DNA of 52,959 nt from a virus: the IMG/VR virus record IMGVR_UViG_3300026130_000007, positions 1 to 52,959 of that record; one strand, given 5' to 3'. The notes beneath the pieces were generated by a model, which saw only the letters and a program-made list of their open reading frames with translations, was not told the origin of the DNA and searched no databases. The translations under genes were made by a program, and so were the position numbers. Of this stretch, positions 5,557-15,001 are shown in pieces (within the stretch, counting starts at the first letter, position 1; every line of letters starts with the position of its first letter).

Positions 5557-6465
5557 TTAATATAAGCCTTTGAGGCTGTTCAAGTTCGTAGTGTTATTTA
5601 TACTCGGTTCATTGTCTGTTGTCAAGTAATTTTTTCTATTTGATGATTTATTTGCACCTGGAGTAGCTTGTATCTGTGCTAGATGAGGCAAACTACCACT
5701 AAAGACATATGAACCAATATGCTTAGATTTCATCCAAGGGCACATCCATATCTTTAGACCGATCTTACGTGCATACTGACTAAACATATAGTCTTCTGAC
5801 AAGTAGCGCTTAGACTCTGGATCAATCACACAATCAAAGAATGCTGTAATCTCACGTGTACCGTCAAAGTGCTTTGTACGACCGTGGTCTGGTTTGTACT
5901 TCAATTCAGGATACGCTTCACTATACTTGATTAGAGCCTTCTTGTCAATCATCATAAAGCCAGTTCCACCTTCTGCAATCTCAACTGGCTCATCGACACG
6001 AAAGGTTTTGACACCTTTAACAGTATTGAATACGTAGTCACCAACATAGTTCTCAAGATCGAATGGGTTGTCAACTTTACCTTGCTCAACAGCCATCTTC
6101 ACTTTCTCCCAAGAGATAGTTTTCTTAGGGTATGGACCAGTGACGATATCATAGCCTTTATCACTGTCGCATAGATGTAGCAGAGTCATAACGTTACGTG
6201 CATCAAAACCAATATCACTGTCAATAAACAACATATGGGTAGAGTCACTACGCAAGAATTCATCTACGCAATAGTTACGTGCTCTTGTGATTAGAGACTC
6301 ATTAAACAAGAAGTAGTACTTAATGTCAATACCCATCTTACCACAAAGCAGAGTTAGATCATTTGTTGCTTTAGTATACATACCTGCACACTGACCACCG
6401 TACATTGGCGTAGCGACAAACAATCTTTTCTCTTTAAGTTTTTCTAGATCGATTTCAATCTTCAT
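5557..6465 (-). CDS. Glycosyltransferase (GT-A type)
   Basis: A 302-residue predicted nucleotide-sugar glycosyltransferase. It begins with RLFVATPMYGGQCAGMYT, typical of a GT-A family seen in T4-like phages, and carries HMLFIDSDIGFDARNVMTLL (near residues 82-101) with the DxD metal/nucleotide-sugar motif DSD. Later conserved-looking parts are VTGPYPKKTISW, EIAEGGTGFMMIDKKAL, and a catalytic-type SEDYMFSQYARK (near residues 223-234). The C-terminal 40 residues are Asn/Ser-rich and probably disordered. No membrane segment is visible. The target is unknown: modified DNA bases, virion proteins or host surface glycans are all possible. The start overlaps the upstream gene by 11 bases, and the gp45 promoters lie within its 3' end. 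Confidence 0.8.
   Translation of the reverse strand: MKIEIDLEKLKEKRLFVATPMYGGQCAGMYTKATNDLTLLCGKMGIDIKYYFLFNESLITRARNYCVDEFLRSDSTHMLFIDSDIGFDARNVMTLLHLCDSDKGYDIVTGPYPKKTISWEKVKMAVEQGKVDNPFDLENYVGDYVFNTVKGVKTFRVDEPVEIAEGGTGFMMIDKKALIKYSEAYPELKYKPDHGRTKHFDGTREITAFFDCVIDPESKRYLSEDYMFSQYARKIGLKIWMCPWMKSKHIGSYVFSGSLPHLAQIQATPGANKSSNRKNYLTTDNEPSINNTTNLNSLKGLY
5595..5625 (-). promoter_or_regulatory. Overlapping early and late promoters for gp45
   Basis: On the minus strand TTGACA (5625-5620) is followed by exactly 17 bases and then TATAAATA (5602-5595). The first six bases (TATAAA) serve as a -10 box with near-consensus spacing, and the full octamer is the T4-type late promoter. The site lies 58 bases before the gp45 start, inside the end of the glycosyltransferase gene. 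The same start region could be used early by host sigma70 and late by gp55. Confidence 0.72.
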
Positions 6466-7060: not shown

Positions 7061-7692
7061 TATCTTTCAACCTGTTCTAAATCATTCTCGGCACGACAAA
7101 TAGCTTGAAGTCTTAAGATATCTGCGGCAACATCGTGTGTACTATCGTGACCTACAAATGCTTCTTTCCAATATGCTTCATCTGCAACTGGGACAAAGCC
7201 ACTTCGTGTGCTGAAGTCAAATTTAGCATCGATGTATGTGCGAATGTCACGTATGCGCCACCACTTCAAGTATTCATTCATAAGAAGATGTTGATCAAGC
7301 TGGTTCATCACACGTTCAAGCAAAACTGGATCAAACGAGTTACCACGTGACCACCAGTAATTGATCTTACCCACACTTCTTAGATAAGAGAATATATTAG
7401 CAGAAAACTCTTCTATTGTCAAGTCATCTGGTTTAGGTAATATCTTTTTCTTAGCTTCTTTTGATTGCTTTCCCCACCAAGCTAGATCATCTTTAGTATA
7501 TGAACAACCACGTGCAACTTGATCAGCAACAGAAAGTTTATCTGTCTGTACTTGTGCGGTAAGTTCTTCAAAAGAGTAAGGATCACTAGTAAAGCGATCC
7601 CAGTCAAACGCTACATACGCAACGTCAATGATAGGGCATTTCATAACGTTCTGCCCTATCGTTTCAAAGTCAAGAATAAAATCTTGATTCAT
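7060..7692 (-). CDS. dexA: DexA 3'-5' exonuclease
   Basis: A 210-residue DnaQ-like (DEDD) exonuclease homologous to T4 DexA. Exo I is FILDFETIG (residues 5-13, Asp and Glu), the middle DEDD Asp falls in WWSRGNSFDPVLLERV (Asp near residue 117), followed by WWRIRDIRTYID, and the last motif is GHDSTHDVAADILRL (HxxxxHD, near residues 181-195). T4 DexA shows the same blocks (IIDFETMG, WCRGMSFDFPIL, NQRDIRTRIEA, AHDSIHDCAKDI). It probably degrades DNA ends during recombination or host DNA breakdown. ATGA overlap with the upstream DUF262-HNH gene implies joint translation. Confidence 0.93.
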   Translation of the reverse strand: MNQDFILDFETIGQNVMKCPIIDVAYVAFDWDRFTSDPYSFEELTAQVQTDKLSVADQVARGCSYTKDDLAWWGKQSKEAKKKILPKPDDLTIEEFSANIFSYLRSVGKINYWWSRGNSFDPVLLERVMNQLDQHLLMNEYLKWWRIRDIRTYIDAKFDFSTRSGFVPVADEAYWKEAFVGHDSTHDVAADILRLQAICRAENDLEQVER

Positions 7693-9080
7693 GCAGCCTC
7701 CAAAGACTCAAGGAATTGTTTCTTATATTCATGTGCATTCATATCTTGCATACGACGGTTGTGCTCTGCACTAATTACAACCAAGTTACTGTAGTCAGTT
7801 TTACCACCTTTTGAGTGAGGTATAATGTGACCACCTTGTGCGTCTTTCATAGTCAAAGGCTCACCAGATACCCAACAAGTGTAGTCTTGCTCCATAAGCT
7901 TTAGTTCAATGTCTTTTCGATTGAAAGTACGGTTCTTATCAAGCCCAATAACAGTAGCTTCTGTCAAGTCCATGTATTCTAGCATCCACTTGATAGTGTT
8001 GTCAAACTTGAATTGGGTATTGTGCTCACCCAAGTGCTGATTGAATGCTTCAACAATGGTTCGTGTGTCATCGTACACATCAATCTTCAAACGCTTTGGA
8101 TTTCGTGGATTGAATAGCTGAAACACACGATCAAATTCACGGGCAAAAGCATCATAGTCATTCACTCGGAAGTCACCATTTGTTTCTTTAAAGTAGAAGA
8201 ACAAACGATAGAGCATGACATATCGACCTTTAGTGATACCTTTGTTCACTACTGACTTATAGCTCTGTGAACATTTCAAAATGAAATCTAGGCACTCTTT
8301 AAGCTTCTTGCCAATTTTGTTAACTTCTTTCTGATCTAGATTTGCATCTTCATACATTTCTACAAGCTTTTTGTTTGGTGAAACGATAGCTTTTTCACCT
8401 TTGTAAATCATGTATGTAATACGTGATACAGTTTCTTCAATAGCTAGTCGATCATTGTTGAAGTCAAGGTTGATCAAAGCTTTCTTCTTACTACGACCAC
8501 TTTCTTCAAATAGAGCATGTGGAGTTGTTGCAGTCTGCGGAATGATGCGAACAGCTTCACGAATCAGGTTAGCGATTGGCATATCACCGTATGAGTTTAG
8601 AGTCTCTTGGAAGTTGACTTCAGTGATATTGTTGACTTCACGAAATATTTCACCTTTCTGCTGATTAGTCAATGGACCATAGATAACAAATCGCATTGGG
8701 TAATTCAACAACCATTCACGCTCTTCTTTAGTCAATTCATTGACGTACTTCTCACCTACAATAGAAGATTTGTGTGTTGGAAAGTCGCCATTCAAGAAGC
8801 CAATTATTGTACGCTTACGATTACCACCATCAATTGATTCATACTCGTATCGACCTTCAGGCTCTTCACAAATACGAATCTCACCTATATCACGACCACG
8901 CAAGATACAATCGATGATACTCTGCTGTTTAGATGGCTCAGATGCGCCTATTGGATTCGGGGAAACGTCTGGTCGCTGAGTGACTGGATTACAGTCAATG
9001 CTCAAACGCATAGCCCAGAACTCACGAATGTTCATTTGCTTGAGTGTCCAAGTAGGTGCTTTAGGCGGTGGTAGTATCAT
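7689..9080 (-). CDS. DUF262 plus HNH nuclease (GmrSD-like architecture)
   Basis: A 463-residue protein with an N-terminal DUF262 (ParB/GmrS-like) domain and a C-terminal HNH nuclease. The DUF262 part shows NPVTQRPDV near residue 31, KQQSIIDCILRGRDIGEI (51-68) and the nucleotide-binding signature SIDGGNRKRTIIGFLNGDF (82-100, the 'DGqqR' motif). The HNH part is CWVSGEPL then GHIIPHSKGG and YSNLVVISAEHN near the C-terminus. Fused DUF262-HNH proteins include GmrSD-type nucleases that cut modified DNA in an NTP-dependent way; others have different specificity. In a phage, next to a predicted DNA-modification set, it could degrade host or rival-phage DNA while sparing modified phage DNA. That role is inference. 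A TTGACA-type promoter (9115-9143) precedes it. Confidence 0.85.
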   Translation of the reverse strand: MILPPPKAPTWTLKQMNIREFWAMRLSIDCNPVTQRPDVSPNPIGASEPSKQQSIIDCILRGRDIGEIRICEEPEGRYEYESIDGGNRKRTIIGFLNGDFPTHKSSIVGEKYVNELTKEEREWLLNYPMRFVIYGPLTNQQKGEIFREVNNITEVNFQETLNSYGDMPIANLIREAVRIIPQTATTPHALFEESGRSKKKALINLDFNNDRLAIEETVSRITYMIYKGEKAIVSPNKKLVEMYEDANLDQKEVNKIGKKLKECLDFILKCSQSYKSVVNKGITKGRYVMLYRLFFYFKETNGDFRVNDYDAFAREFDRVFQLFNPRNPKRLKIDVYDDTRTIVEAFNQHLGEHNTQFKFDNTIKWMLEYMDLTEATVIGLDKNRTFNRKDIELKLMEQDYTCWVSGEPLTMKDAQGGHIIPHSKGGKTDYSNLVVISAEHNRRMQDMNAHEYKKQFLESLEAA

Positions 9081-9468: not shown

Positions 9469-10179
9469 TTATTTTATGGCAATTGCACCAACAAACAAGT
9501 GATTCTGCCAGAAGGTTTGAACTGAATTGAAGCCCGCTGTTGATAGCATTTCGTTCAACTCACTCCAAGTATTTGGTTTGAGCATACTACGTAGATCACG
9601 CTCTTTGTCCATAATATCTTCTACAGTGAAGTTCTCACGTTTAAAGTCGTAATACATGAATGTTAGCATATCTTGAACCTTAGGACTGCAAGAATATGTC
9701 TTCTCGGCAAAAACAAATGCACCACCAGTATTAAGACCTTTATAGATTTTATTAAGAACATCTTGCCTATCTTTGTGTGGCATAAACTGTAGTGTAAAGA
9801 TAGATGTTATCATAGAACAATTAGCGAAATCAAACTCACGTACATCAGCTTGTCTAAGATCGATTTCGGGATACTGGCTCATTCTTTTTTTCATGTCATC
9901 AACAAAACCATCTGCATAGTCGATACCTCGATATCGTGCCTTTGGTGCAAAATGATGATTCTGGTCATACATAGCGGCAAGAGTCTTACCAGTAGAACAA
10001 CCGATATCGACAACATTAGTATCATTCTCTACGAAGTACTTCGACATTTTAACAATATCGTCATGGAGAGAGGAGTAGTGTCTAATGCTCATATCGATAT
10101 GATTATCAAAACCCTCTTGGCGGTGTGCAAATGTGAAATCGTTTGCACTAGCAACAGTAGACTTTTCACGATCTTTCAT
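9469..10179 (-). CDS. cmoA: CmoA-like carboxy-S-adenosylmethionine synthase
   Basis: A 236-residue class I methyltransferase-fold protein that aligns end to end with bacterial CmoA, which makes carboxy-SAM from SAM and prephenate. Shared blocks: HYSSLHDDI (residues 34-42, E. coli PGYSNII), the SAM loop VVDIGCSTGKT (56-66), ADVREFDFANCSM (111-123), FTLQFMPHKDRQDVLNKIY (128-146), GLNTGGAFVFAEK (148-160), YDFKRENF (177-184), LRSML (196-200) and the C-terminal FWQNHLFVGAIAIK. Arg197 falls on E. coli Arg199 and Tyr35 on Tyr39 by my alignment; the Arg contacts the carboxylate of carboxy-SAM. These residues argue for a carboxy-SAM synthase, not a plain methyltransferase. The gene starts 4 bases after a DNA methyltransferase with an unusual motif X. 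No CmoB is visible in this window, so the usual tRNA U34 role would depend on host CmoB. Confidence 0.87.
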   Translation of the reverse strand: MKDREKSTVASANDFTFAHRQEGFDNHIDMSIRHYSSLHDDIVKMSKYFVENDTNVVDIGCSTGKTLAAMYDQNHHFAPKARYRGIDYADGFVDDMKKRMSQYPEIDLRQADVREFDFANCSMITSIFTLQFMPHKDRQDVLNKIYKGLNTGGAFVFAEKTYSCSPKVQDMLTFMYYDFKRENFTVEDIMDKERDLRSMLKPNTWSELNEMLSTAGFNSVQTFWQNHLFVGAIAIK

Positions 10180-10183
10180 AATA

Positions 10184-11410
10184 TTAGCCCTTTAGTTCAT
10201 TGTATGGTTTCAACACATTCTGATATATCGACTTAGCAACTTCAGCCATCATCTTAGGCGCAACCATGCGACCAATGCGCTCGGCTTGCTGATCAAATGT
10301 ACCAGTTAGCTTATAGTCATCAGGTAGCGACATTATAACCTTTAGCTCTTGTATTGTCAACTTACGATTTTCAGCGTAGTGGAATACACCAGATAGACCA
10401 CGCTTCTGACCTTGTTGAGTCAAAGTTGGACTAGGTAGATGTGGTGCAGGTCTGATCATGTTGAAGCAAGAACCTTTTGGATTCCAACTGCGAAACTCTG
10501 GATCACTTGGTTTAGTATGCTTGAGTGGTCGAAACGGTAGCGGGTCTAGAAACTTCTTCTGAAACGAATTCTCGTAGAAGTCACGTAGCATCTGCACTTC
10601 TTCAGGATCATTCTCAATATCTTCAATAGCTGATTCAAGACTGACTGGTTGTGCGACAGTCTTAGCAGGAAAGATACCGTTTAGATTTAGAACATTTAGA
10701 CCAATAGCATCACAAACATCTTCACGAACACAAATAAAGATAGTACGCTCACGTGCTTGTGGAGTACCATAATCTGCGGCATTTAGAACTTGATACGTTA
10801 CTTGATACCCAATAGCTTCGAATGACTTGATGAACTCAAACAGCTTCTTCTGGGCTTCACCAAACGTAATGCCTTTGACATTCTCTGCAACGATAACCTT
10901 GGGTTTAATGTCTTTAGCTACACGAATGAACTCTAAGAACAAGTCCTCAATACCTTCCTGAGTCTTACCGTCAGAGTACTTCTTGATACCCTCTTTAATC
11001 TTTAACTCACCTTCTTGAACGATGTTACCGTCTTCATCAAAGTAAGTTTTGCGAGTATCTTCAGCATAGCCAGCCCAACCCTTTTCACGCTTACCCGCTA
11101 CAGAGAATGCGGAACATGGTGGAGAGCCGTCTAGAATATCTAGCTCTCCCACCTTAAGGTTTGCCATCTTTAAGAAGTCTTCACCAGAGTACTTTTTGAT
11201 ATCATCAACTAATACAGGAGTGTCTGGGTAGTTCTCCTTATAAGATGCAATAGCTTCTTCTACAAACTCATTAATGAGTAGTATATTACCGCCAGCGAGG
11301 CGATAGCCAGTGGAGCTACCTCCACCTCCGGCGAAACAACTAACGACTGAAAATAATTTTTTATTCGATTCATTTTTAACATCTTCGACTGTATACTTTT
11401 GGTATTTCAT
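10184..11410 (-). CDS. Cytosine-C5 DNA methyltransferase with Asn-to-Arg change in motif X (candidate carboxymethyltransferase)
   Basis: A 408-residue cytosine-C5 DNA methyltransferase. In order: motif I SCFAGGGGSSTGY (residues 24-36), motif IV GSPPCSAFS (95-103, catalytic Cys99), motif VI ENVKG (176-180), motif VIII QARERTIFI (218-226), a short target-recognition region (about 230-345), motif IX ENRKLTIQEL and motif X ERIGRMVAP (377-385). Motif X normally reads G-N-x-V; here the Asn is Arg381 (codon 10268-10270). An engineered M.MpeI variant with a basic residue at this Asn is reported to accept carboxy-SAM and make 5-carboxymethylcytosine. With a carboxy-SAM synthase gene directly downstream, this enzyme is a candidate natural carboxymethyltransferase. 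I chose ATG 11410 (GAGGG ribosome-binding site) over the TTG at 11422. A consensus sigma70 promoter lies upstream (11479-11507). Confidence 0.93.
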   Translation of the reverse strand: MKYQKYTVEDVKNESNKKLFSVVSCFAGGGGSSTGYRLAGGNILLINEFVEEAIASYKENYPDTPVLVDDIKKYSGEDFLKMANLKVGELDILDGSPPCSAFSVAGKREKGWAGYAEDTRKTYFDEDGNIVQEGELKIKEGIKKYSDGKTQEGIEDLFLEFIRVAKDIKPKVIVAENVKGITFGEAQKKLFEFIKSFEAIGYQVTYQVLNAADYGTPQARERTIFICVREDVCDAIGLNVLNLNGIFPAKTVAQPVSLESAIEDIENDPEEVQMLRDFYENSFQKKFLDPLPFRPLKHTKPSDPEFRSWNPKGSCFNMIRPAPHLPSPTLTQQGQKRGLSGVFHYAENRKLTIQELKVIMSLPDDYKLTGTFDQQAERIGRMVAPKMMAEVAKSIYQNVLKPYNELKG

Positions 11411-11418
11411 CTTTGCCC

Positions 11419-12228
11419 TCAAAATAAAGTTGGACCTACGTCTTGCCAGTCTCGGACTAGATCCATGACTCTTTGCCTATTATATAGGTTTATGCTTTTG
11501 TTGTCAAGCAACTTTTCAAAGTAGTCAGGAATACCCGCAACTAATTGTAGGTTCTCATGTTTGCGTCTCTTGATCTGTTTAATCTCTGAGAACGCTTCAT
11601 GTATGGGCGCCTTTTGGGATGGTTTATTGAAAAAGTCCCAGTCGTGTTGCATCATCCAATCAGCAACTTCAGGTTCAAGATATGGTGCGATTAATTTCAT
11701 ACCATACTCTTCTGCTAGTTGCCTTTGCTGTAGAACACCCGCTGGATTCTCTGCCCCGAAGTAGTCTGTGCGGAACTTATCGAAAAGCTCTTTAGTGTGT
11801 TTGAAATGAATGTTAGCACGTTTAGAAACACCGTACCAACCATCAGCCGCTACACCAGACAATACTACTTTCTGTTCAATCTTTGGATACACATACAAGA
11901 ATGGAAATGTGCATTCAACTTGGGTCTTCTTCTTACAACCGTACCTATTTATAAGAGTAAAGAAGTCATCGGCTATATTATCTACGGGTACATTAACGCC
12001 AACGAAGTCCCAACCAAAATGCTCTGCAACGTCTTTAGCACCTAGACTATCACTAGTCTGTTTACCGTTAACGTACATGCTATACCCAGTAACTTTCTTA
12101 CCGAGTCTATGTGCGGCTAGCGCACACGTGATACTATCTGTTCCTGCCGATAAAAGAACGGCAACCTCATCAATACCTTGAGATTGCCTTTCTACAATAT
12201 CGACAATGATATCGTCAATATTTTTCAT
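11419..12228 (-). CDS. Asparagine synthetase-like ATP-dependent ligase (no glutaminase domain)
   Basis: A 269-residue stand-alone homologue of the synthetase (C-terminal) domain of AsnB-type enzymes. The PP-loop for ATP pyrophosphatase chemistry is LSAGTDS (residues 26-32). The AsnB-like VLSGVAADGWYG (122-133, compare LSGEGADEVFGG) and APYLEPEVADWM (181-192, compare PFLD...) follow, then a KAPIHEAF stretch. Proteins of this family adenylate a carboxylate and form an amide. The N-terminal Ntn glutaminase domain of AsnB is missing, so the amine donor would be free ammonia or another amine. It starts on the gp46 stop (TAATG), and its stop lies within the ribosome-binding region of the DNA methyltransferase. 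In this context its substrate may be a carboxylated base, but free aspartate or another acid cannot be excluded. Confidence 0.82.
   Translation of the reverse strand: MKNIDDIIVDIVERQSQGIDEVAVLLSAGTDSITCALAAHRLGKKVTGYSMYVNGKQTSDSLGAKDVAEHFGWDFVGVNVPVDNIADDFFTLINRYGCKKKTQVECTFPFLYVYPKIEQKVVLSGVAADGWYGVSKRANIHFKHTKELFDKFRTDYFGAENPAGVLQQRQLAEEYGMKLIAPYLEPEVADWMMQHDWDFFNKPSQKAPIHEAFSEIKQIKRRKHENLQLVAGIPDYFEKLLDNKSINLYNRQRVMDLVRDWQDVGPTLF
11479..11507 (-). promoter_or_regulatory. Perfect-consensus sigma70 promoter driving the DNA methyltransferase
   Basis: TTGACA (11507-11502), exactly 17 bases, TATAAT (11484-11479) on the minus strand. It lies within the last codons of the ligase gene and about 70 bases before the methyltransferase start. 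Both boxes match the consensus fully, so strong early expression of the methyltransferase and the CmoA-like gene is expected. Confidence 0.75.
11946..11953 (-). promoter_or_regulatory. Possible internal late promoter in the ligase gene
   Basis: An exact TATAAATA on the minus strand, but inside coding sequence (the LINRYG region of the ligase). It could give late expression of the methyltransferase and CmoA-like gene, or be chance. Confidence 0.25.
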
Positions 12229-13937
12229 TATGCTGCCATTCTACTAAAGTTCTTCACTTTCTCAAATCTTACTACATGATCAAACTTCTCATACAATTGA
12301 TCACCTTTATGACTAATTATAAAGATGTTTGAGTCTGCTGTCAACTCATTTATGATCTTAAGAAATTCATCAGTACCAGAGGTGTCTAATGAAGAATCCA
12401 TAATCTCATCCATAATGAGTAGGTTAGTCGATACTGAGTTTCTTAGTTTACTAACGGCTCGCCACGTGAATAGTAGGGCAAGGTCAATACGTAGCTTCTC
12501 GCCTTCGGAGAAAGAAGCATAAGAAAACACATCACGAAAACGGCTCTTAATAGTCTCATTGAAGTTTTCATCCAATTCAAATTGCACAAAGAAGTCCATA
12601 GCGGCTAGGTACTTGTTAATGAGTTTGTTCATAACAGGTACGTACTGCTTAATGATTCGAGTCTTGATACCACCATCTTTCAACATAGATGATACAATAC
12701 CCAAAGTCTCTTTATCTTCAAACAACTGATTTTGCTTGTTATGATAAGTTACTAGATCATCTTCAAGTTTAGCAATAGAAGTAGTATCGATAGCTTCTAC
12801 CTGCTGTTCTGCATTTGTCAACTCTTCTTTGATTGCTTTGCAAGTATTCATTGCAATCTTGTAGTTTGCGTTATGCTCAGACATTTCTAGGTTCTTAGCT
12901 GAGATTGTAGATTCAACACCATCAATCTCTTCTAGTCGAGTCTCTACACTATTAAATCGATCTTGCAATTGTTCTCTTGCTGATTCGACTTCTGAGATTT
13001 TGGTTGTGGTTCCTTCGATCTCTTGTGTTTTGAACTCATGTTCGATACCTTGTCTACAGGTTGGACAATCATCGTGTTCCCTATAGAATTCGATATCTTT
13101 TCGTAGTTTCGATAGTTTATTGGAAAGTTGACCATCAATTTTCTGTAGCTCCTGTAGCTTCTTCTTCATAGAAGCTTTGTCAGATACGCTCTGGGTTAGT
13201 TCTGTAACTTCATCCATTAGCGTCTGTACAGCTTCCTGCTCTGCTTCAATAATACTTATCTGTTCCTTGAGTTTAGCTTTAAGCTTGGCTACTTCACCCT
13301 CTCGCAACTGACGAATAGATTCGTTATGCTCTTTAGCGCTATCAATCTTATTCTCAAGTAAATCGATCTGGTACTTGATTTCTTGAATCTCTTCTTTATT
13401 ACTAGATACACGCTCTTTCAATAGTGTATTCATCACAGTAAAGATTTGAATATCAAGTAGGTCTTCGATTACTTCACGGCGATCTTTTGCGCTCAACTGC
13501 ATGAACGGTACAAACGTACTAGAACCAAGAACAACTACTTGACCAAAGGACTTGTAGTTCATCTTCAAGATGTTTTCTTCTAGATATGCTTGATAGTCAC
13601 GTACTGCGGCATCTTGATTGACTAGTTCACCATTGCACCAAATCTCAAAGATGTTGGGTTTGATACCACGCTTAATGTTGTACTTCTTCTTACCAATCTC
13701 AAAGTCTAACTCTACTCGCAAGTCTTTCTTGTTGATAGAGTTTAGCAACTGTGGCTTCTTAATGTTACGAAACGCTTTACCGTACAATGCAAAAGCAATG
13801 GCGTCAAGCATAGTAGACTTGCCTGCACCATTGTCACCAACGATAAGCGTAGACTTGTTACGATCTAGCTCAATCGTAGTCCACGCATTACCAGTTGAAA
13901 GAATGTTCTTAAAGCGTACTTCTTTGAATAGAATCAT
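12228..13937 (-). CDS. 46: Recombination endonuclease subunit gp46 (Rad50/SbcC-like)
   Basis: A 569-residue SMC-type ATPase homologous to T4 gp46, which with gp47 resects DNA ends for recombination-dependent replication and helps degrade host DNA. Walker A is IVGDNGAGKSTMLDAIAFAL (residues 32-51). Two long coiled-coil arms flank the zinc-hook motif CPTCRQG (near residue 290). The ABC signature is FSEGEKLRIDLAL and Walker B is LLIMDEIMDSSLD near the C-terminus, followed by the D-loop and a switch His in FIISHKGDQ. It overlaps the gp47 stop (ATGA) and its own stop overlaps the ligase start (TAATG). Confidence 0.97.
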   Translation of the reverse strand: MILFKEVRFKNILSTGNAWTTIELDRNKSTLIVGDNGAGKSTMLDAIAFALYGKAFRNIKKPQLLNSINKKDLRVELDFEIGKKKYNIKRGIKPNIFEIWCNGELVNQDAAVRDYQAYLEENILKMNYKSFGQVVVLGSSTFVPFMQLSAKDRREVIEDLLDIQIFTVMNTLLKERVSSNKEEIQEIKYQIDLLENKIDSAKEHNESIRQLREGEVAKLKAKLKEQISIIEAEQEAVQTLMDEVTELTQSVSDKASMKKKLQELQKIDGQLSNKLSKLRKDIEFYREHDDCPTCRQGIEHEFKTQEIEGTTTKISEVESAREQLQDRFNSVETRLEEIDGVESTISAKNLEMSEHNANYKIAMNTCKAIKEELTNAEQQVEAIDTTSIAKLEDDLVTYHNKQNQLFEDKETLGIVSSMLKDGGIKTRIIKQYVPVMNKLINKYLAAMDFFVQFELDENFNETIKSRFRDVFSYASFSEGEKLRIDLALLFTWRAVSKLRNSVSTNLLIMDEIMDSSLDTSGTDEFLKIINELTADSNIFIISHKGDQLYEKFDHVVRFEKVKNFSRMAA

Positions 13938-15001
13938 AGGCTCATTGCCTCTTGATATAGCTCATTCAAGAACTTCTGAATCTTCACTTTATCACCCTTA
14001 ATCTCTAAGTTATCAACGTATTGACGCAAGATGGTCATAGTGTCTTGCGCCTCATCGATAAGCTCATCTTCATTAATTACGTCAAGATTTTGATGATCCT
14101 CAACAACTTTGATATCAGCAGGTGCCGCTTTCTGCAAGCGGTCTAAGAATAGATCAAAGATGTAAGGATTCTCTTTCTTGCTTACTATAACTTTAATGAA
14201 AGTATTTGTCAATGGAGAAGTGTCAAGATTTGCAACATCTTCAATAGTCATATCAGCATCATCATACGTGATCTTGTGGAACAAACGTAGAGGATTGCGT
14301 ACATATGTCATTTTACGTGTTGATGTGTCAAACACACTAAAGCCACGCTTCTGGTCATAGTCAGACCACGTTAGCTCATATTGGGCACCTAGATATGTAA
14401 TGTTACCATGTGAAGATGGTTGATGAAAGTGACCAGAGTACACTGCATCGAACTTAGAGAACACATTACGGTCCATACCGTGATCGCAGATATGACCCTT
14501 GTCCATTTCATAACCAACAATCTCGAAGTGACCCATTAGAATCTGCGCTTTAGTCTCAGCCATAGCTTTCATAGAGGCATCGTGATTCTCAGCACAAATC
14601 CACGGAGCAAGCATAATCTTACAGCCGTCCATGTCTAGCTCTACTGGTTCTTCCCAGAATAGATGTAGATTATCATAGCTTGAGTTGCCATACAGTTGAC
14701 GTAGACTGTTTACGTCATTAGTATTCTTGAAGTAAGTGTCGTGGTTACCTGCGATCATGTATAGCTGAATACCCTCTTCAGCGCACACTCGCATAAACTG
14801 CTCTTCAAGATTCTTTGCTGTTACAAAGTTAATGTACTTGCGTCTATCTGTAACATCGCCTAAGTGAAAGATCGTCTTGATATCGTTTTCACGTAAGTAT
14901 GGAAAGAACACCTCACGATAGAACTGGTGTTGGTGCTCTGCAATAGCCGCATTGTCATTACGTGCTCCAAAATGTGTATCGTTTAATATAGCTATACGCA
15001 T
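13934..15001 (-). CDS. 47: Recombination endonuclease subunit gp47 (Mre11/SbcD-like)
   Basis: A 355-residue calcineurin-like metallophosphoesterase, the nuclease partner of gp46. Metal-binding motifs are in the canonical order: ILNDTHFGARND (D-x-H, residues 4-15), HLGDVTDRRKY (GD, near 46-56), AGNHDTYF (GNH, near 99-106), ILMGHFEIVG and VYSGHFHQPS (GHxH). The C-terminal 100 residues form the capping/dimerisation part. The order 47 then 46, with a 4-base overlap, is that of T4. ATGAGG lies 7 bases upstream of the start as ribosome-binding site. Confidence 0.97.
   Translation of the reverse strand: MRIAILNDTHFGARNDNAAIAEHQHQFYREVFFPYLRENDIKTIFHLGDVTDRRKYINFVTAKNLEEQFMRVCAEEGIQLYMIAGNHDTYFKNTNDVNSLRQLYGNSSYDNLHLFWEEPVELDMDGCKIMLAPWICAENHDASMKAMAETKAQILMGHFEIVGYEMDKGHICDHGMDRNVFSKFDAVYSGHFHQPSSHGNITYLGAQYELTWSDYDQKRGFSVFDTSTRKMTYVRNPLRLFHKITYDDADMTIEDVANLDTSPLTNTFIKVIVSKKENPYIFDLFLDRLQKAAPADIKVVEDHQNLDVINEDELIDEAQDTMTILRQYVDNLEIKGDKVKIQKFLNELYQEAMSL

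Follow-up and report, generated by a model that had tools for sequence, protein, structure and literature searches.

Gene cluster in the window

The window (i.e., the whole stretch of DNA that was analyzed) is a single IMG/VR record of 52,959 bases from a marine phage; sheath, terminase, clamp, and gp46-like genes of T4 type are encoded on it. For its first 24 kb, the near DNA matches found in cultured phages were all to cyanophages, and those listed cover a gp23-type head gene. We identified three consecutive genes on one strand, in the order cmoY-cmoX-cmoA and separated by gaps of a few nucleotides; cmoA starts 4 nt past the end of cmoX. These genes and two motifs of CmoX are as follows.

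9469-10179, minus strand: cmoA-like gene, carboxy-SAM synthase, 236 aa (TIGR00740, PDB 4GEK, likeness to S-B43 CmoA)
10184-11410, minus strand: cmoX-like gene, predicted DNA cytosine C5-carboxymethyltransferase, 408 aa (matches to Pfam DNA_methylase and 8YF3)
10268-10270, minus strand: Arg381 codon (CGC) in motif X (GRMV), predicted binder of the carboxy-SAM carboxylate; aligns with Arg350 of SpCmoX
11114-11125, minus strand: motif IV, Ser-Pro-Pro-Cys with catalytic Cys99; aligns with S95-P96-P97-C98 of SpCmoX
11419-12228, minus strand: cmoY-like gene, AMP-forming amide ligase of the asparagine-synthetase family, 269 aa (Pfam Asn_synthase, likeness to SpCmoY)

The ATG at 11410, preceded by an AGGG-type ribosome site, is the likelier start of cmoX; a TTG at 11422 would give a protein of 412 aa. 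CmoX matches Pfam DNA_methylase (E = 5.5e-51), and its best sequence match among solved structures is 8YF3, the SpCmoX enzyme of Synechococcus phage S-B43 (E = 6.7e-106; the runner-up is M.HaeIII, 1e-20). An AlphaFold model was built from 27 homologues (pLDDT 89.0; pTM 0.87), and its low-confidence part comprises residues 101 to 160, that is, the catalytic loop and its insertion. A Foldseek search with this model again placed 8YF3 first among PDB entries (E = 1.0e-38; TM score of 0.93 on the target), with the second-best match at 4e-18.

For CmoA, TIGR00740 is by far the best family (E = 1.9e-36), and the protein also matches PDB 4GEK (E = 2e-28) and is 54% identical to the CmoA of S-B43. Its score of 125.9 bits is below the equivalog cutoff of NCBIfam (193.3); this cutoff excludes the phage branch, because the biochemically proven SpCmoA (115.6 bits) also falls under it. 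CmoY matches Pfam Asn_synthase (E = 2.4e-14); it is an asparagine-synthetase-type ligase that lacks a glutaminase domain, and at 45% identity over 266 residues it is close to SpCmoY. PDB matches of CmoY to designed TIM barrels were spurious and were discarded.

Two other genes on the minus strand of the window were noted. One (7689-9080) encodes a 463-aa protein with an HNH C terminus, the only part recognized by Pfam, and an N terminus that appears DUF262/ParB-like by eye; relatives of this protein occur in 12 of 85 loci. The other (5557-6465) encodes a 302-aa protein that resembles GT-A glycosyltransferases by eye (TPMYGG...DSDIGF) and had no match in the Pfam search.

The motif X arginine and the S-B43 precedent

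The CmoA-CmoX-CmoY system of Synechococcus phage S-B43, which yields 5-glycylcarboxymethylcytosine, was described by Yang et al. (Nat Commun, December 2025; PMC12783734). In that system, SpCmoA produces carboxy-SAM, SpCmoX, for which carboxy-SAM is the only accepted cofactor, generates 5-carboxymethylcytosine in GC motifs, and SpCmoY couples glycine to the carboxymethylcytosine; the glycine amide is present in S-B43 phage DNA (PMC12783734). Arg350 of SpCmoX, which occupies the position of Asn304 in HhaI, touches the carboxymethyl group in the complex with carboxy-SAM (8YF3), and the R350N variant used neither cofactor (PMC12783734). The same study compiled 5,615 candidate CmoX sequences, with IMG/VR among its sources. 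Our literature search for natural 5cxmC found nothing beyond this work.

An earlier note, made from the DNA letters, had placed an arginine (Arg381, CGC at 10268-10270) in the motif X tetrapeptide G-R-M-V, and reading of the minus strand together with the alignment confirmed the coordinates, the residue number, and the motif. The numbering counts from the ATG at 11410; from the upstream TTG, the same residue is 385. Motif X of the window enzyme reads E-R-I-G-R-M-V-A-P-K, and its ERIGRMVAP aligns without gaps with E-R-V-G-R-M-V-P-P of SpCmoX, which puts Arg381 in the column of Arg350. Ordinary SAM-dependent C5 methyltransferases have Asn here (G-N-x-V), as do the ordinary phage C5 enzymes RB16 and IPP14 (GNSV); the window enzyme departs from this pattern. 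Since Arg is retained in every IMG/VR relative of the window CmoX that covers the motif, it represents neither chance nor a sequencing error.

The remainder of the pocket is likewise conserved. Named by Yang et al. as cofactor-contacting or catalytic, residues F25, E47, F48, D69, S95-P96-P97-C98, and R350 of SpCmoX correspond to F26, E48, F49, D70, S96-C99, and R381 of the window enzyme, and all are identical. The window protein thus combines a C5-methyltransferase fold and an SPPC motif with Arg at the R350/N304 position and a cmoA gene in the same genome. Arg381 is predicted, through the alignment with 8YF3, to lie near the transferred group. The earlier note had proposed a natural carboxymethyltransferase, a proposal now supported by the crystal structure and activity of SpCmoX (PMC12783734), by the conserved pocket, and by the adjacent cmoA; a location of Arg381 away from the transferred group, which the note had named as a refutation, is answered by the structural search, in which 8YF3 ranked first for the model. 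The note had also stated that M.MpeI N374K, with a basic residue in place of the motif X Asn, uses carboxy-SAM; this is borne out by Yang et al., who liken Arg350 to this engineered substitution (PMC12783734). An Arg-to-Asn exchange need not turn the window enzyme into a SAM user, since R350N of SpCmoX used neither cofactor.

The window and S-B43 systems share the three genes, the motif X Arg, the SPPC motif IV, every cofactor contact that the paper names, and a T4-like phage as carrier. However, the gene order is A-Y-X in S-B43 and Y-X-A in the window, the identities are limited (approximately 49% for CmoX, 54% for CmoA, and 45% for CmoY), and, compared with SpCmoX, both the catalytic loop and the target-recognition region of the window CmoX carry insertions. 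The PP-loop of the window CmoY also differs, reading SAGTDS where most relatives have SGGxDS. Because of these insertions and this PP-loop, the target and the amine may differ from those of S-B43. Depletion of GC dinucleotides was considered as a hint of the CmoX target, but the odds ratio of 1.08 gave no such hint.

Three other enzymes provide points of comparison. M.MpeI N374K resembles the window enzyme in the exchange of the motif X Asn for a basic residue that allows the use of carboxy-SAM, but it is engineered, has Lys instead of Arg, is CpG specific, and has no partner genes. Enzymes of the M.HhaI type share the fold, the PC and ENV motifs, and the covalent Cys mechanism, whereas they carry Asn304 in the motif X column, use SAM as the donor, and are approximately 20% identical in the structural match. 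The nearest non-Arg relative, the GLMV enzyme of Methylophilales phage Melnitz (37% identity over the full length; SPPC motif), differs from the window enzyme in its Leu in the motif X column, its lack of cmoA, and its adjoining TET/JBP dioxygenase gene.

Motif X and partner genes among homologues

Homologues were collected from IMG/VR with six seeds (i.e., the window CmoX, an Erwinia jumbo-phage enzyme, Melnitz, PaBG, and the non-Arg controls Fpv8 and IPP14), and named phage records were added. The resulting 353 homologues, among which a few records are counted twice, have Arg (113), Met (82), Leu (81), or Asn (77) in the motif X column. A cmoA gene was found within the fetched stretch for 97 of the 113 Arg enzymes and for 0 of the 240 others (Leu, Met, and Asn). 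When sequences were clustered at 75% identity, cmoA accompanied 17/20 Arg clusters and 0/76 others (Fisher p = 3.7e-16, a value that does not measure independent events because the Arg enzymes form essentially one clade).

Of the 16 Arg enzymes whose fetched stretch lacks cmoA, 14 come from Erwinia/Dickeya-type jumbo phages; L037 and L359 are the other two. Whole-record searches located cmoA in all nine of the jumbo-phage genomes examined, at a distance of approximately 17 kb from cmoX in Erwinia phage pEa_SNUABM_16. L037 is short, its contig breaking off just past cmoY, and L359 belongs to a MAG whose assembly holds a cmoA 57% identical to that of the window. No cmoA was found in 17 non-Arg records searched over their whole length, including six complete phage genomes. 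The earlier note had held that Arg being common without cmoA neighbors would count against its proposal; this pattern did not occur among the 353 homologues. A 709-aa Erwinia jumbo-phage enzyme, considered as an Arg type without cmoA, was rejected: its cmoA lies approximately 17 kb away and its extra length is an intein.

Several Arg-type loci showed additional features. All 14 CmoX sequences of the Erwinia/Dickeya jumbo-phage type (L005:5941-8067, L087-L098, and L189) contain an intein of approximately 350 aa, matching Pfam Intein_splicing and Hint_2, whose insertion point (SPP|CFxxDT...VVHN|C) directly precedes the catalytic cysteine, and the unspliced proteins would have no joined SPPC motif. 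Far from its cmoX, pEa_SNUABM_16 carries a cluster (L190:4268-6964; record positions 12267-14966) in which cmoA is accompanied by genes for a DUF1611/DgcN-like protein and for a CmoY-like ligase; the DUF1611 product might supply or activate the amine for a different hypermodification. In five further loci (L079, L080, L083, L084, and L085), two neighboring cmoX genes, both of the Arg type, accompany a single cmoA, possibly representing two DNA target specificities.

In a quick maximum-likelihood tree, two changes were needed to account for the Arg rows, which form essentially one clade, and Arg may have had a single origin. The Arg-cmoA linkage is therefore co-inheritance of essentially one event and not repeated independent evidence. 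The long Melnitz branch was placed beside or within the Arg clade. In Moraxella phage Mcat8 (L004:5959-7663), a divergent Arg-type CmoX precedes a CmoA homologue that is itself very divergent (63.5 bits to TIGR00740), and a CmoY-like gene was not detected there. A scan of genome contigs yielded a single relative, in a Chloroflexi MAG that possibly holds a phage contig.

The non-Arg relatives fall into distinct types. The Melnitz scan revealed GLMVAP in 80/80 Leu-type relatives, and a TET/JBP dioxygenase gene is present in 65 of the 81 Leu-type loci (directly downstream in 62) and in 0 of the 113 Arg loci. TET/JBP enzymes are known to oxidize 5mC or T at the methyl group, and the Leu-type relatives thus presumably still use SAM. 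Loci of the Melnitz type (L003 and L099-L178), in which the Leu motif X methyltransferase is followed by the dioxygenase, suggest a CmoX-related route that combines methylation with oxidation; in Melnitz itself, a RimK-like ATP-grasp ligase is also encoded nearby. A large Met clade (L183, L186, L188, and L199-L278) is of the SPPC type with GMSVPP and has neither cmoA nor TET.

Proposed pathway and significance

The observed arginine, pocket, gene cluster, and Arg-cmoA linkage point to 10184-11410 being, very probably, a cmoX gene whose product carboxymethylates cytosine C5 with the carboxy-SAM made by CmoA, after which CmoY would add an amine and the phage genome would be protected. In this pathway, CmoA would convert SAM and prephenate to carboxy-SAM. 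CmoX would flip out the cytosine, with Cys99 attacking C6, and would move the carboxymethyl group to C5; Arg381, gripping the carboxylate, would favor carboxy-SAM over SAM. CmoY would activate the new carboxylate with ATP and join it to an amine, probably glycine, and the resulting hypermodified cytosine would shield the genome from host nucleases. For the S-B43 system, whose CmoX is 49% identical, other authors have demonstrated all three reactions (PMC12783734), and from these we infer the activities of the window enzymes. Glycine is the likeliest amine of CmoY, and protection from restriction is the probable role in this phage by analogy.

The enzymes may act as proposed except that CmoY uses not glycine but a different amino acid, ammonia, or a polyamine, which would make the final base a new one; we consider this variant distinctly less probable than coupling to glycine. 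The modest identity between CmoY and SpCmoY and the confinement of SAGTDS to eight CmoY loci, that of the window and those closest to it, are in keeping with this variant, as is the report of ligase clusters that differ in active-site residues and have unknown amines (PMC12783734). Against it, the ammonia-type glutaminase domain is absent, and the window CmoY retains the SpCmoY blocks KKT..ECTFPFLYV and YGVSK. A narrower version, in which the SAGTDS subgroup joins a non-glycine amine to 5-carboxymethylcytosine at a non-GC target and yields an undescribed hypermodified base, is a slightly more doubtful proposition. That the window enzyme is an ordinary SAM-dependent 5mC methyltransferase, with a neutral Arg and a cmoA that serves tRNA modification and is a neighbor by chance, is highly improbable: the Pfam and PADLOC models do call it a cytosine methylase and PHROGs labels the CmoA family as tRNA methyltransferase, but Arg was never found without cmoA in the whole genomes that were checked, SpCmoX, which has the same pocket, takes only carboxy-SAM, and Yang et al. 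state, of S-B43, that it has no CmoB homologue (PMC12783734).

Thus, with very probable carboxymethylation by CmoX as the preferred reading, the window is another, real example of the system published in December 2025 and not a discovery in kind; it was Yang et al. (2025) who made the general discovery. One enzyme family seems to follow two routes to a functionalized cytosine, with the motif X letter shifting with the partner. A single residue appears to predict the cofactor of a DNA methyltransferase, and among the sampled phage C5 enzymes the motif X letter tracks the partner: carboxy-SAM synthase accompanies Arg, TET/JBP oxygenase accompanies Leu, and neither accompanies Asn or Met. The letter is therefore usable as a sequence marker for carboxymethylcytosine phages.
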